Assembly: GCF_900142475.1 (NCBI RefSeq)
Contig: NZ_FRAY01000003.1
Span: 434,001-498,000, forward strand
Source: Fibrobacter sp. UWH4
GTDB taxonomy: Bacteria > Fibrobacterota > Fibrobacteria > Fibrobacterales > Fibrobacteraceae
Length of the DNA: 64,000 bases
Reading direction: 5' to 3'
Shown here piece by piece: positions 6,009 through 39,063 of this stretch (the stretch's first letter is position 1; each line of letters starts with the position of its first letter). Under the pieces are notes generated by a model. That model was given only the letters and a program-made list of their open reading frames with translations, did no database searches and was not told the DNA's origin. Position numbers and translations under genes: made by a program.

Positions 6009-7232
6009 ATGAAAAAATTTCTTTTAGGAGCAGCCTTCGCAATGGCTCTTTCTCAAGTAAACGCAGCCCCGGACCCGAATTTCCACATCTATCTCGCCTT
6101 TGGCCAGTCCAACATGGAAGGTCAGGGCGATGTCGGGCAACAGGACAAGACGGTTGACGAACGTTTCCAGGTTCTCTGGGCGGCCGACAATGGCTCCTGT
6201 TCCGGGAAGACCAAGGGCAAATGGTCTACTGCCGTGCCTCCGCTTGCGCACTGTCAGGGTGCAAAACTCGGCCCCACGGACTATTTTGGTCGTACCATGG
6301 TCGAAAAGACGGACCCCCAGATCAAGGTGGGCGTCATTGTGGTCGCTGTCGCAGGGTGCAGCATCCAGTTGTTCGACAAGGACTCCTACGCAAATTATGC
6401 TAAAACACAGCAGAGCTGGATGACCCAGCGAATCAACACCTATGGCGGCAACCCTTATGGTCGCCTGATTGAGATGGCCAAGAAGGCCCAGGAAGAAGGC
6501 GTTATCAAGGGCATCATCTTCCACCAGGGCGAAACCGATGCCGGCGATGGCCAGTGGCCTTCCAAGGTCAAGAGGGTCTACGACAACATTATCAAGGATT
6601 TAGGCCTCGAAAACGACATTCCGTTCCTCGCGGGCGAAGTGCTGCGCAGCGGCGTGAGCAAGGGCGCGAACAACAACATTGCCAAGCTTCCGCAGCAGTC
6701 CAAGAACTTCTACGTGGTGTCTTCCGAAGGCTTCAACCAGGCTCTGAACGATGGTCAGAACGTACACTTCACCTCGCAGGAATACCGCGACTTCGGCAAG
6801 CGCTACGCCGAAAAGATGATCGAGGTCCTGGGTGACAAGCTCAAACCCGTTGCAGAATCCAGCAGCAGCGCGGCTGAATCCAGCAGTAGCGAAGTCGCCT
6901 CCAGCTCTAGCGAAGCAAAATCCAGCTCCAGCCATAGCCATCACGGAGTTTCTTCTTCGTCAGAGGCAGGTACGGGCATTGCGCAGGCAAACCACTTTGC
7001 GGGCGGGGCGCTTACGGTGAACAAAGCCGGCAATGTGCAGTTGAGCCTCGCCAAGGCAACGCAGCTCACCGTCAAGGTTTACTCTAGCCTCGGCAAGGAA
7101 GTGCTGGACTTGAGTGGCAACTACGCCGGAACCAACACCCTGGTGCTTGCAGACAGACTCCCGGCCGGGCGCTACGTAGTCAGTGCCCAGGGCGAGGGGT
7201 TCAAGGCCACTAAGCCTGTAATGGTAAAATAG
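6009..7232 (+). CDS. CE6-family acetyl (xylan) esterase, secreted, Ser-rich linker and tail
   Basis: Removes acetyl groups from xylan-type polysaccharide outside the cell. The signal peptide ends V-N-A. The SGNH-type catalytic domain (about residues 20-280) has the nucleophile block F-G-Q-S-N-M-E-G, the internal I-F-H-Q-G-E-T-D block, and a late H-F-T motif that supplies the catalytic His. A linker of S-S-S-S runs (about 283-330) leads to a ~75-residue C-terminal beta tail ending A-T-K-P-V-M-V-K. The start at 6009 has GGAG six bases upstream; a TTG at 5997 is less likely. The 3' end overlaps the convergent trmO gene by 23 bases. A related esterase with a CBM6 lies at 30391-31968. Confidence 0.88.
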   Translation: MKKFLLGAAFAMALSQVNAAPDPNFHIYLAFGQSNMEGQGDVGQQDKTVDERFQVLWAADNGSCSGKTKGKWSTAVPPLAHCQGAKLGPTDYFGRTMVEKTDPQIKVGVIVVAVAGCSIQLFDKDSYANYAKTQQSWMTQRINTYGGNPYGRLIEMAKKAQEEGVIKGIIFHQGETDAGDGQWPSKVKRVYDNIIKDLGLENDIPFLAGEVLRSGVSKGANNNIAKLPQQSKNFYVVSSEGFNQALNDGQNVHFTSQEYRDFGKRYAEKMIEVLGDKLKPVAESSSSAAESSSSEVASSSSEAKSSSSHSHHGVSSSSEAGTGIAQANHFAGGALTVNKAGNVQLSLAKATQLTVKVYSSLGKEVLDLSGNYAGTNTLVLADRLPAGRYVVSAQGEGFKATKPVMVK

Positions 7233-8058
7233 CGACGACCGTCAGGTGGTCGCCCTGCACTTGAAACTTGATTTCGAAGCCGGCGAACCTGATGCCGTAA
7301 ATGCGGTCGGCGGACCTCTGGTACGCGGGCCGCGGGTCTTCGGAAAGCAGCTCCACAAGAGCTGCCTTTTTTTCTGCGGGGAATTTTACGCCGGCGGCAC
7401 CAGATACTTCAGGGATACCGGCAGCATCGGGCGCAAATCTCGTGCCTTCGAGCAATTCCGGAGCCAATTTTCCGGGCGCAAATCCCGTGCCTTCAAGAAC
7501 TGCTTGCGCCTCGGCGGCAAATTCGACTTCGAGCTTTTTAAAGCGCACCGCCTCGGCAAAACCGCCTGTGGCCTCGGGCACGGAATCGGCGTACGGCAAG
7601 TAGGGCTTGATGTCTACTATAGACGTGCCGTCCATGAGGTCGGCGCCGCTGACCGTAATGGAGGGCGCGCCCTCCCCCATCAGGTTGATTTTCTCGATTT
7701 TGACGCAGCTCATGGCCAAGGGATTCGGCCTAAAGCTACTGCGCGTCGCAAACACGCCCAGCCGCGTATTGCCACCAAGACGGGGCGGGCGTACCGTCGG
7801 CTTCCAGGTATCGCGAACGTTCTCCGAAAAAATCCACAAGAGCCACAAGTGGCTAAAGCCTTCCAGCCCGCGCAACGCGTCGGCATTCCTGAATTCCGGC
7901 TCAAAGACAATCGTCGAACGCAAATTCTTCAAGAGCCCGCTCTGCCGCGGAATCCCGAACTTGTCCGGAAAATCGCTCCTGATGCGGGCAATGACCTTGA
8001 AAGTTATCTCGTCAAATTGCACAGCGAAATAATAGAAAAATGGACCTACGTTTTTCAA
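7210..8058 (-). CDS. trmO: tRNA-t6A37 methyltransferase TrmO (TsaA/YaeB family)
   Basis: Transfers a methyl group from SAM to the N6-threonylcarbamoyl-adenosine at position 37 of threonine tRNAs. Family motifs are clear: F-P-D-K-F-G-I-P-R-Q near the N-terminus, G-V-F-A-T-R-S-S-F-R-P-N-P-L, D-I-K-P-Y-L-P-Y-A-D-S, and a C-terminal D-P-R-P-A-Y-Q...Y-G-I-R block. Between the last two blocks lies an Ala/Pro-rich stretch (about residues 188-225) containing a near-duplicate L-E-G-T-x-F-A-P, longer than in typical family members. The start is uncertain: TTG at 8058, or GTG at 8022, which would begin nearer the family's usual N-terminus. The gene lies directly downstream of the orphan antitoxin-like RNA at 8109-8254, with only a terminator hairpin between. 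Confidence 0.88.
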   Translation of the reverse strand: MKNVGPFFYYFAVQFDEITFKVIARIRSDFPDKFGIPRQSGLLKNLRSTIVFEPEFRNADALRGLEGFSHLWLLWIFSENVRDTWKPTVRPPRLGGNTRLGVFATRSSFRPNPLAMSCVKIEKINLMGEGAPSITVSGADLMDGTSIVDIKPYLPYADSVPEATGGFAEAVRFKKLEVEFAAEAQAVLEGTGFAPGKLAPELLEGTRFAPDAAGIPEVSGAAGVKFPAEKKAALVELLSEDPRPAYQRSADRIYGIRFAGFEIKFQVQGDHLTVVAILPLQA

Positions 8059-8108
8059 CTATCCAAAATCAATAGCTAAAAGAACATCAGAACTAACACT
8101 GGATGATT

Positions 8109-8254
8109 TTTCCTCAAAAAAAAGCCGTTCTTTATATTTTCATATAAAAAACGGCAAAAATTGGCCTTTCTTTTTTATCTCAGGTGGCGACCTACCACCC
8201 TGTTTCATCAATTTGGCCTTTCTTTTTTTCTCAGGTGGCGACCTACCACCCTGT
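8109..8254 (-). ncRNA. Orphan type III antitoxin-like repeat RNA (no toxin gene)
   Basis: Read on the minus strand, a TATAAT promoter is followed by two near-identical 52-nt repeats, then a hairpin GCCGTT...AACGGC with eight T's. Each repeat has stem GGTGG / CCACC, then GAG and an A-rich run (GAGAAAAAAAGAAA), then GGCC. The loop GGUC can pair with the downstream GGCC (one wobble), forming an H-type pseudoknot. The same plan with different pairing bases (GAGC / GCUC) occurs at 35486-35617, there followed by a toxin gene. Here the terminator is followed by GAGGAAAAATC, a possible leftover ribosome-binding site, but no toxin frame; trmO comes next. Function as an antitoxin is inferred. Confidence 0.6.
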
Positions 8255-8259
8255 TGCTG

Positions 8260-8290
8260 ATTATAATATACAAAAGAAGATGTTATACAA
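8260..8290 (-). promoter_or_regulatory. Promoter of the orphan repeat RNA
   Basis: A perfect -10 TATAAT (complement of 8260-8265) lies about 6 bases before the first repeat. TTGTAT (8285-8290) is a weak -35 candidate at 19-base spacing. Confidence 0.55.
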
Positions 8291-8521
8291 GACTGTTTAG
8301 GCAATCAGGCTCCGCGCTTGTGTAAACAATTTCGCCCATGAATTTGCGGAAATAAACACCGAAGTAAAACATCTTCACGTCGTAATATAGATTTTTAAAG
8401 CGTTAAATTATGACATTTGTAAAATTTATTAGCTGCGGTGGATGGAAGTCCTTGAGACTGTTGGTCCTTGCGGGCATCCTCTGGGATGCTTATGTTGACT
8501 AAAACACATCAAGTTTAAAGA
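8291..8521. other. Intergenic stretch with one doubtful 30-codon frame
   Basis: No gene of normal size is visible. A frame at 8410-8502 (+) would encode 30 residues with a short hydrophobic core (L-R-L-L-V-L-A-G-I-L-W), but it has no ribosome-binding site and no recognised homologue. The rest is AT-rich, with no clear terminator. Confidence 0.3.
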
Positions 8522-9007
8522 TTATTTCTTTCGTCCTGGACGTGTTTCGGTTGAGATGATTTCCAATTCTCCGTCGGCGCAATTAAATTCCAATTCTCCA
8601 GAAAGAAATTTTTTTTTCATATTATTTTTGGCGGTGTATTCGTTGTCGGCTATTGTTTTCCGGACATAGATCGTTGCATCGCCTTTCTTTTTATATGTTA
8701 CGGTAAACGTCGTTCTTCGCTCGCATCTCTCTGGAGGCGGACATCTATTCCTATTTTCGTCGAAGTAGGCTACTTTGGCCTTGTATTTGTGATTGAGTTC
8801 GGTTTCGTTTTTTTTTAAAGCCCATTTTGCAATCCAATAAGCATTGCCATTCGTTACATCTTCGTCTTTTCCGAAGTAAGCCATTTCTGGAATGACATCT
8901 TTGTGCCCGTTATAATCGTAAGCTATGTAGACCGCTTTTCCATTGATTGGGAAAAAGCTTTTTAGCCTTACGCTGATGCATATTGTAGGTCTTTTCGGTC
9001 TAGCCAT
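8522..9007 (-). CDS. Hypothetical protein, 161 residues
   Basis: Not recognised. A soluble, mixed alpha/beta-looking protein with no signal peptide or membrane segment, rich in Lys, Asn and Tyr. A Cys-containing stretch (R-N-R-C-P-P-P-E-R-C-E-R) lies near residue 90-100 and a basic tail R-P-G-R-K-K at the end. A good ribosome-binding site (AAAAGGG about 6 bases before the ATG) supports the start. Its base composition is more AT-rich than the flanking core genes, and gene remnants lie on both sides, so it may belong to a transferred or decaying patch. It shows no resemblance to type III toxins despite lying upstream of the orphan RNA. Confidence 0.6.
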   Translation of the reverse strand: MARPKRPTICISVRLKSFFPINGKAVYIAYDYNGHKDVIPEMAYFGKDEDVTNGNAYWIAKWALKKNETELNHKYKAKVAYFDENRNRCPPPERCERRTTFTVTYKKKGDATIYVRKTIADNEYTAKNNMKKKFLSGELEFNCADGELEIISTETRPGRKK

Positions 9008-35014: not shown

Positions 35015-35464
35015 CTACTTCCCTTTTAACAACCAACCGCGGTAGTAAGTCAACGAAGAAAACCTGTATTTGGGTGGCAAAGGCTCTTTTTTCAAGCCCT
35101 CTATAAAATCATCAATATACTTTTGAAATTTTTCCACAATAAATATATAGCGCTTCATGATTTCCGTATGTTCTCGTGAATCGATATGCGCAGGCATTCC
35201 AATTTCATCATCATTAAAAATAATGACACTTTTACTAAAATCTAGCCCAGACGATGTCCTTTTGGAATTTTCACTTTCAAATTTATATGCATGTGTATGC
35301 TGGATATTCGACCTAAATGGAATAGCAAATCTAAAGGAACGGTATTCCACTAGCAACACCAAATAAGGGCGGTTTTCCTTCACAAGAATTTCGGTATTAT
35401 CTGCATAACGCTCGTAAAACAACGGCGATAGCAGCATAACCTTGGGTATGTTTTCTTTTTTCAT
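35015..35464 (-). CDS. Type III toxin-antitoxin endoribonuclease toxin (CptN/TenpN-like)
   Basis: A ~149-residue protein predicted to cut its own antitoxin RNA precursor and, when free, cellular mRNA. Features shared with CptN/TenpN/ToxN-type toxins as I know them: L-F-Y-E-R-Y near the start, N-R-P-Y-L-V-L-L, F-A-I-P-F-R-S-N-I-Q-H, and G-L-D-F-S-K-S-V-I-I. The helical C-terminal half has F-I-V-E-K-F-Q-K-Y-I-D-D. The ATG at 35464 is chosen: AAAAAGGA lies five to six bases upstream, directly after the antitoxin terminator; a TTG at 35482 is inside that terminator. Promoter, repeats, terminator and toxin are in the classical type III order. The exact family (CptN or TenpN) is not settled. Confidence 0.8.
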   Translation of the reverse strand: MKKENIPKVMLLSPLFYERYADNTEILVKENRPYLVLLVEYRSFRFAIPFRSNIQHTHAYKFESENSKRTSSGLDFSKSVIIFNDDEIGMPAHIDSREHTEIMKRYIFIVEKFQKYIDDFIEGLKKEPLPPKYRFSSLTYYRGWLLKGK

Positions 35465-35485
35465 GTTTTCCTTTTTTGACAAAAA

Positions 35486-35617
35486 AAGAAGCCGCTTTTA
35501 TATGGATATATAAAAACGACTTCATCTAATGAGCTTTCTTTTTTTCTCAGGTGGTCGCTCTACCACCCTGTCATCATTTCGAGCTTTCTTTTTTTCTCAG
35601 GTGGATGCTCTGCCACC
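35486..35617 (-). ncRNA. Type III antitoxin RNA: two 50-nt pseudoknot repeats plus terminator
   Basis: Minus-strand transcript with two tandem 50-nt repeats (35581-35620 plus flank, and 35531-35580). Each has a stem GGTGG / CCACC, a loop containing GAGC, an A-rich stretch GAGAAAAAAAGAAA, then GCTC, which can pair with the loop to form an H-type pseudoknot, the fold known for type III antitoxins. The stem bases differ between copies (loop-closing T-A versus C..T) while pairing is kept. Then follows hairpin GAAGTCG...CGGCTTC with seven T's (35481-35524), which limits toxin expression relative to the RNA. The A-run probably holds the toxin cleavage site. Confidence 0.78.
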
Positions 35618-35623
35618 CTGTCT

Positions 35624-36231: not shown

Positions 36232-36489
36232 ATGCCGAATATCCGTCCAATTTCAGACTTGCGCAACAACTTCACGAGCGTCGCGGAAACCGTACACAAG
36301 TACGACGAGCCCATGTATTTGACCAAGAATGGCGTGGGCGACATGGTCGTGATGTCCATCGAATGCTACGAAAAGCAGATGGCCCAGCTGGAACTTTATT
36401 CAAAACTTGCCGAAGCCATTTCCGAAGTGGAACGCGGTGCGGAATGCGCCGATGCCGAAAAATTCTTGAAGGATTTAATGAATGGCTAA
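36232..36489 (+). CDS. Phd/YefM-family antitoxin
   Basis: An 85-residue antitoxin. The N-terminal part, I-R-P-I-S-D-L-R-N-N-F, then Y-D-E-P-M-Y-L-T-K-N-G-V-G-D-M-V-V-M-S, is the Phd/YefM DNA-binding fold; the acidic C-terminal tail should wrap the toxin. It overlaps the downstream toxin gene by 8 bases. It probably binds the palindrome in its own promoter. Similar in plan, but not in sequence detail, to the antitoxin at 38460-38735. Confidence 0.88.
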   Translation: MPNIRPISDLRNNFTSVAETVHKYDEPMYLTKNGVGDMVVMSIECYEKQMAQLELYSKLAEAISEVERGAECADAEKFLKDLMNG

Positions 36490-36799
36490 AAAGTACGAAG
36501 TCGTTATCACGCCTTCGGCGCAAAAAGACCTCAACGAAATCAAATCATATTTTACAAACGTTCTCAAGACTTCATCAAATTCAATCTTCGAGAAGTTTCT
36601 TGAACAGGTCAGGCTGTTGAAAGCGCATCCGTTCACCTATCCCGTCCACCAAGATCCGCTGCTGAAACTCGTCGGCTACAGGGTCATTCCCATTGACAAC
36701 TACCTGATGTTTTACATGGTCAGGGGCAATGTCGTTCAAATCCATCGATTCCTTTACGGCAAACGGAACTACCTACAGTTACTAGGCATGGACACGTGA
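36482..36799 (+). CDS. ParE/RelE-superfamily toxin
   Basis: A 105-residue toxin. It starts Y-E-V-V-I-T-P-S-A-Q-K-D-L-N-E-I, contains L-V-G-Y-R-V-I-P-I-D-N-Y-L-M-F-Y-M-V and ends with I-H-R-F-L-Y-G-K-R-N-Y, the standard ParE/RelE fold order. Whether it poisons gyrase (ParE) or cuts mRNA (RelE) cannot be told; the late H-R-F-L-Y-G-K-R-N-Y is common in both groups. Overlap with the antitoxin gene implies coupled translation. Confidence 0.87.
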   Translation: MAKKYEVVITPSAQKDLNEIKSYFTNVLKTSSNSIFEKFLEQVRLLKAHPFTYPVHQDPLLKLVGYRVIPIDNYLMFYMVRGNVVQIHRFLYGKRNYLQLLGMDT

Positions 36800-38428: not shown

Positions 38429-38459
38429 TAATACCGAATTCAGTCTTACGCGAGGTTTT

Positions 38460-38735
38460 ATGCCGACCTATAAAAATATCAAGCCGATTTCTTACATTAA
38501 GGCAAACGCTGCAAAAGTGCTAGACCATGTAAATGACACTCGTGCACCCTACATCGTCACGCAAAACGGTGAAGCTCGCGGCGTAATCCTCGATACCGAG
38601 ACATTCCAAATGATGCAGGACGGCTTAAAGTTGTTTAAGCTTTTCGCTCAAAGCGAAGCCGAATTTTCAAAAGGAAAAACAATCAATCAAAAAGACCTCT
38701 TTGATTCCTTGGAGAAAGAACTAAATGCCCTCTAA
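38460..38735 (+). CDS. Phd/YefM-family antitoxin (second pair)
   Basis: A 91-residue antitoxin with I-K-P-I-S-Y-I-K-A-N-A-A-K-V-L-D and the T-Q-N-G-E-A-R-G-V-I-L-D turn of the Phd/YefM fold, followed by a helical acidic tail. The ATG at 38460 follows CGAGG; the 20 codons upstream cover the promoter and are excluded. It overlaps the toxin start by 11 bases. Presumed autorepressor and neutraliser of the next gene product. Confidence 0.87.
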   Translation: MPTYKNIKPISYIKANAAKVLDHVNDTRAPYIVTQNGEARGVILDTETFQMMQDGLKLFKLFAQSEAEFSKGKTINQKDLFDSLEKELNAL

Positions 38736-39063
38736 GAAAATCATTGTAGAATGGTCCGAATCGGCATCTCTCGACTTGAAGTCCATCATCTTGCATATTG
38801 CAACAAGTAGCCCCAAAAACGCAAAAGACTCGCTTGCTAGAATAAAAAAGGAATGCCAAGTCCTTGAAAAGTTTCCAGATTTGGGCAAAATTCCTGCGGA
38901 ATTAGAATATTTGCAAATCAACGGATTCCGGGAACTCGTTGTAAGCCCCTGGAGAATTTTTTATCGCAAAGAAGAAAACCGCGTCAAAGTCTTGGCTGTT
39001 GTCGATTCAAGACGCGATCTAGATGACGCCCTCTGGACACGTATGATGTTCCCGATTGTATAG
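38725..39063 (+). CDS. ParE/RelE-superfamily toxin (second pair)
   Basis: A 112-residue toxin: V-E-W-S-E-S-A-S-L-D-L-K-S-I near the start, F-P-D-L-G-K-I-P-A-E-L, F-R-E-L-V-V-S-P-W-R-I-F-Y-R in the core, and V-L-A-V-V-D-S-R-R-D-L late, the ParE-like plan. The toxin ends 2 bases before the convergent ABC ATPase gene. It differs clearly from the toxin at 36482, so the two pairs are not a recent duplication. Confidence 0.87.
   Translation: MPSKKIIVEWSESASLDLKSIILHIATSSPKNAKDSLARIKKECQVLEKFPDLGKIPAELEYLQINGFRELVVSPWRIFYRKEENRVKVLAVVDSRRDLDDALWTRMMFPIV

Follow-up and report, generated by a model that had tools for sequence, protein, structure and literature searches.

The locus lies on the minus strand of a 64,000-nucleotide stretch of Fibrobacter DNA (the window; its genome is denoted G000 and those of its relatives likewise by G numbers). 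In the direction of reading, its features are:

8265..8270, minus strand: -10 box TATATT in the promoter of the antitoxin RNA (from a comparison of the sequences upstream of every RNA locus and from alignments to G061, G005 and G102)
8203..8253, minus strand: TenpI-type antitoxin repeat 1, 51 nt, with stem GGTGG/CCACC, pseudoknot GGTC/GGCC and an A-rich linker
8156..8202, minus strand: antitoxin repeat 2, stem and pseudoknot as in repeat 1, running into the terminator
8116..8155, minus strand: intrinsic terminator with a 14-pair stem and 8 T, situated between antitoxin RNA and toxin in intact loci
8105..8115, minus strand: remnant toxin ribosome-binding site GAGGAAAAA, identical in the toxin-bearing G005, G086 and G102
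8089..8106, minus strand: 18-nt piece attributed to the toxin interior by alignment to the G102, G086 and G005 toxins
8059..8088, minus strand: C-terminal toxin stub DVLLAIDFG*, aligned to the intact end DVLLNIDFG* of G102 and also found in the toxin-less G061
8029..8058, minus strand: promoter-like site of trmO (TTGAAA, 18 nt, TATTAT), with a -10/GTG layout also seen in relatives without the RNA
7210..8022, minus strand: trmO (Pfam TrmO_N 6.5e-44, TrmO_C 1.8e-12)

The RNA (8116-8253) consists of two near-identical 51-nt pseudoknot repeats and the terminator, whose stem spans 8155-8124. The repetition goes far beyond chance, as two 46-nt segments at a spacing of 51 were identical at 40 of 46 positions, versus 27 of 46 at best in 60 first-order Markov shuffles, and the RNA fold z-score was -5.4. 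The initial annotation had put the repeats at 52 nt, which is one too many, but its description of two repeats, a terminator, a GGTGG/CCACC stem, an A-rich linker and a GGUC/GGCC pseudoknot was accurate: in each repeat the loop GGTC can pair with GGCC beyond the linker, with one U-G pair. In 17 distinct repeat units taken from related loci all pseudoknot positions pair (100%), and three of the four pairs show compensatory double changes; when the partners are slid by one column, overall pairing falls to about 48%. It had been argued that such covariation indicates selection on the orphan RNA. That is right for the family as long as it was linked to a toxin, but the toxin-linked relatives G102, G086 and G005 carry the very same GGUC/GGCC repeats, so the covariation says nothing about the orphan; it is real but, judged from these alignments, older than the toxin loss.

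A comparison of all upstream regions showed that the promoter of most RNA loci consists of TTGAC or TTGCT, a spacer of 17 nt and TATATT. The supposed likeness of the window's promoter to that of the sister locus 27 kb away extends to the -10 box, which is intact, but not to the -35 box, which is kept at most sister loci and is here replaced by GTCTTG, since from about 8275 leftwards the sequence is unlike that of any relative. An inverted repeat (8276-8299/8353-8376, 24-nt arms, 75% complementary) adjoins the -10 box. It spans 8276-8376, at the very place where the window and all its relatives part, and is probably a trace of the rearrangement in which the -35 box was lost. As it occurs just once in the genome, it was rejected as a repeated mobile element, and it shows no attC consensus by eye that would make it an attC-like site. 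Further to the left, between the RNA and a putP-like gene and in a stretch absent from relatives, lies an ORF of 161 aa (8522-9007) for which no significant Pfam or PADLOC match was found.

The identity of the system was established from the sister locus, where the toxin gene is still present:

35018..35467, minus strand: intact subtype-A TenpN toxin (NCBIfam NF047358 TenpIN, 125 bits; ToxN-like predicted fold)
35524..35623, minus strand: subtype-A antitoxin repeats GAGC/GCTC (weak Rfam 6A matches)

All 19 homologues tested matched NF047358 (type III TenpIN toxin), the protein at this locus with 125.4 bits at a cutoff of 90. Its predicted model (mean pLDDT 85) aligned best to ToxN, AbiQ and CptN (Z 12.1 to 9.7), with MazF-like chains clearly below these (Z about 6.5), so that the fold, one of the hallmarks of TenpIN toxins, is predicted to be ToxN-like. 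No toxin family was hit by 35018-35467 in Pfam or PADLOC, and a sequence search against PDB chains returned nothing useful. On the NCBIfam match and the ToxN-like predicted fold, the system is a TenpIN type III module with a TenpI-type antitoxin RNA. Near this type III locus, at a distance of at most 4 kb, lie two Phd/YefM-ParE type II toxin-antitoxin pairs (36232-36799 and 38454-39063).

The initial annotation saw in the locus an orphan copy of a type III antitoxin RNA that is followed by trmO instead of a toxin, and proposed to look for the toxin between RNA and trmO in related Fibrobacter genomes, where intact genes would point to decay. They were indeed found there. In G005 a subtype-B toxin with an open frame of 174 codons and a GTG start separates trmO from an RNA that is identical to the window's over about 160 nt, and the order is the same in G086 and G102, with an identical RNA, an intact toxin and then trmO. 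The match between G102 and the window runs through RNA, terminator, ribosome-binding site, toxin stub, spacer and trmO, and the two sequences differ mainly in that the window lacks two stretches of the toxin. What is left of the gene here is GAGGAAAAA, the 18-nt piece and GATGTTCTTTTAGCTATTGATTTTGGATAG, which reads DVLLAIDFG*; the toxin start and N-terminal codons were deleted right after the ribosome-binding site. The 18-nt piece matches exactly over 11 bases (GTGTTAGTTCT) and, being short, is less certain than the C-terminal piece. The suggestion that GAGGAAAA may be all that remains of a toxin gene was thus half right: it is the toxin's ribosome-binding site in relatives, but it is accompanied by the 18-nt piece and the C-terminal codons. 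Of the features that characterize a TenpIN module, the orphan locus has the tandem pseudoknot repeats upstream of the toxin site (two repeats) and the intrinsic terminator between RNA and toxin site (8155-8116). A toxin of the TenpN family, present at the sister locus and in G102, G086 and G005, is reduced to stubs, and we therefore regard the orphan locus as a remnant of a TenpIN module and not as a complete member.

The position of the RNA, about 100 nt upstream of trmO on the same strand, would fit a leader or, as suggested at the outset, a regulator recruited by that gene. A -10 box stands a few bases ahead of the GTG of trmO, and this layout is kept in G030, G010, G073, G035 and G020, all of which lack the RNA. 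Judging from the sequence, trmO probably starts, leaderless, at the GTG at 8022 and not upstream, and probably has a promoter of its own. Together with the 14-pair terminator that closes the RNA, this makes regulation of trmO by the RNA unlikely, and in relatives the toxin lies in between; we consider such a role highly improbable.

Another possibility raised at the outset was protection against a toxin elsewhere, for which the resident toxin at 35 kb would be a candidate; the orphan RNA and that system share one genome, the same stem and the same A-rich linker. The orphan RNA, however, is a TenpI antitoxin remnant of subtype B and the 35-kb system is of subtype A, and at none of the 35 intact loci do RNA and toxin belong to different subtypes. 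Moreover, the subtype-A locus already has two intact repeats of its own. In CptIN, a related family, rescue was obtained with cognate antitoxins but not with non-cognate ones (PMC4627078). The subtype-A gene was the sole toxin gene found in the window genome, where a subtype-B toxin was not found. Buffering or cross-neutralisation of the resident toxin by the orphan is thus very unlikely.

In a survey of 80 Fibrobacter genomes, a covariance model detected the RNA in 42 and toxin homologues were present in 35. When one genome per species across GTDB was scanned by pattern, the RNA turned up only in Fibrobacter and its family, and an exact pattern scan of viral contigs found none. Extra pattern matches at L126-, L145-, L148, L153 and L164 were dismissed as chance. 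Of the loci examined in detail, 64 in all, 35 carried a complete toxin gene and 15 lacked one altogether; at the other 14 the gene was damaged, either by truncation, by a frameshift or by reduction to a C-terminal stub. The reverse situation, an intact toxin without the RNA, was not encountered in the 80 genomes except for one case cut by a contig end. Loci with a single repeat were more common where the toxin was damaged or missing (12/29 versus 2/35 at intact loci, p = 7e-4), and by our tally about 15 of the 20 clearly toxin-less loci were in a genome without an intact toxin of the same subtype. If an antitoxin is unsafe to lose before its toxin, decay that starts with the toxin predicts this genus-wide pattern.

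Two further degenerate toxin-less RNA loci, L137 and L139, lie outside the 64. At both of these a toxin-less TenpI RNA is directly followed by a small gene with a DUF4258 domain, and at L176 by one with a DUF4160 domain; these genes may possibly represent replacements of the toxin at the same RNA. A pair of loci, L128 (in G075) and L140 (in G068), have a toxin-less RNA with the same scar. Here the sequence from the promoter to just beyond the toxin stub is near-identical, the left flank has diverged and the right flank is unrelated, which suggests that the block moved or recombined as a unit.

Whether orphan RNAs are kept by selection or simply eroding was judged from their conservation. The RNA repeats and the -10 box are identical in G000, G061, G102 and G005, and between G000 and G061 there is no change in the RNA, against 9 differences at the 124 fourfold sites of trmO. 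Such conservation is what one would expect of a solitary antitoxin that is still made and neutralises incoming toxins of its subtype on mobile elements (anti-addiction), though none is resident. Plasmids and some viral contigs carry relatives of the toxin, and orphan type II antitoxins are common in Klebsiella, where an anti-addiction role was proposed (PMC7192599). The repeat units of toxin-less loci, moreover, differ by a median of 0 positions from the nearest intact unit (versus 1 among intact loci), and perfectly paired units are nearly as frequent in damaged or toxin-less loci (42/47) as in intact ones (64/68). The toxin scar, however, is conserved between G000 and G061 just as well as the RNA, which argues for a recent event or for local recombination. 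That the scar is common to two species may be due to descent or to exchange. The trmO distances suggest local exchange, since the trmO of G061 shows 15/768 differences from that of G030, which lacks the RNA, but 36/765 from that of G000. Further signs are at odds with selection. The -35 box is kept in G061 but replaced in the window, and G061 in turn has a changed terminator stem and ribosome-binding site; many toxin-less loci are down to one repeat; and the toxin-less L140 has lost one of its pseudoknot pairs, with a toxin remnant that shows no change from that of L128. Terminator regions drifted more in toxin-less loci (p = 0.007), in part because this stretch overlaps the deletions. From these sequence changes the orphan RNA looks like it is decaying, and its expression in the window genome may well be reduced. 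We consider a selected solitary antitoxin unlikely. The broader proposal, that the toxin-less TenpI RNAs of Fibrobacter form a retained class providing immunity against incoming TenpN toxins, draws on the near-perfect repeats at the 29 loci with a damaged or missing toxin and also seems rather doubtful to us.

The reading we favour, with a probability of roughly 85%, is that a TenpIN-type type III module lost its toxin by deletion and that the RNA is its antitoxin half, now probably partnerless and eroding. The ancestral locus would have consisted of a promoter, two TenpI pseudoknot repeats, a leaky terminator, a TenpN toxin with a GTG start, and trmO, an arrangement retained in G102, G005 and G086. 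In a lineage that includes G000 and G061, two deletions of about 95 and about 360 nt, as estimated from the alignment, would then have taken nearly all of the toxin. A cell should tolerate losing the toxin as long as the antitoxin is there but be harmed if the antitoxin goes first, and modules of this kind would thus decay toxin-first and leave the RNA behind. The remaining RNA would probably be without a partner, and presumably without a present function, and under erosion.

The module itself is of a known kind, and orphan antitoxins of kinds other than type III are already well known (PMC7192599). Orphan type III antitoxins and their frequency were not described in the literature searched, a set outside of which the major TenpIN and 6A-motif sources fell. 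The locus offers a clear and datable case of the decay of a type III module in which the toxin goes first and the RNA stays, and the one-sided loss recurs at about 30 loci in one genus. For annotation it is a caution that such repeats need not mean a working toxin-antitoxin system.

Among known systems, CptIN of Eubacterium rectale (PDB 4RMO) is similar in repeat length (45 nt versus 51 here), in RNA architecture (two stems, the first loop very short, the second long and A-rich) and, according to the predicted model, in toxin fold (Z 9.7); it differs in RNA sequence, and the toxin here is TenpIN by profile. The Rfam 6A RNA (RF02925) resembles the subtype-A sister repeats in its AGAGC-loop hairpin, A-rich linker and GCUC; the sister locus scores 32.7 and 28.6 and the orphan 17.3, all below the gathering threshold of 41.2. 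This sub-threshold similarity at 35524-35623 suggests that 6A RNAs may be a family of type III antitoxins, which is a testable idea. The orphan type II antitoxins of Klebsiella (PMC7192599) are comparable in that an antitoxin without toxin is found at degraded loci and is widespread across a population, but those are proteins of type II and IV systems and here it is an RNA. As for TenpIN (NF047358) itself, the parental locus, as preserved in the relatives, has its tandem pseudoknot repeats, intrinsic terminator and toxin of the ToxN fold, while the window locus, with its toxin deleted, is half a module.
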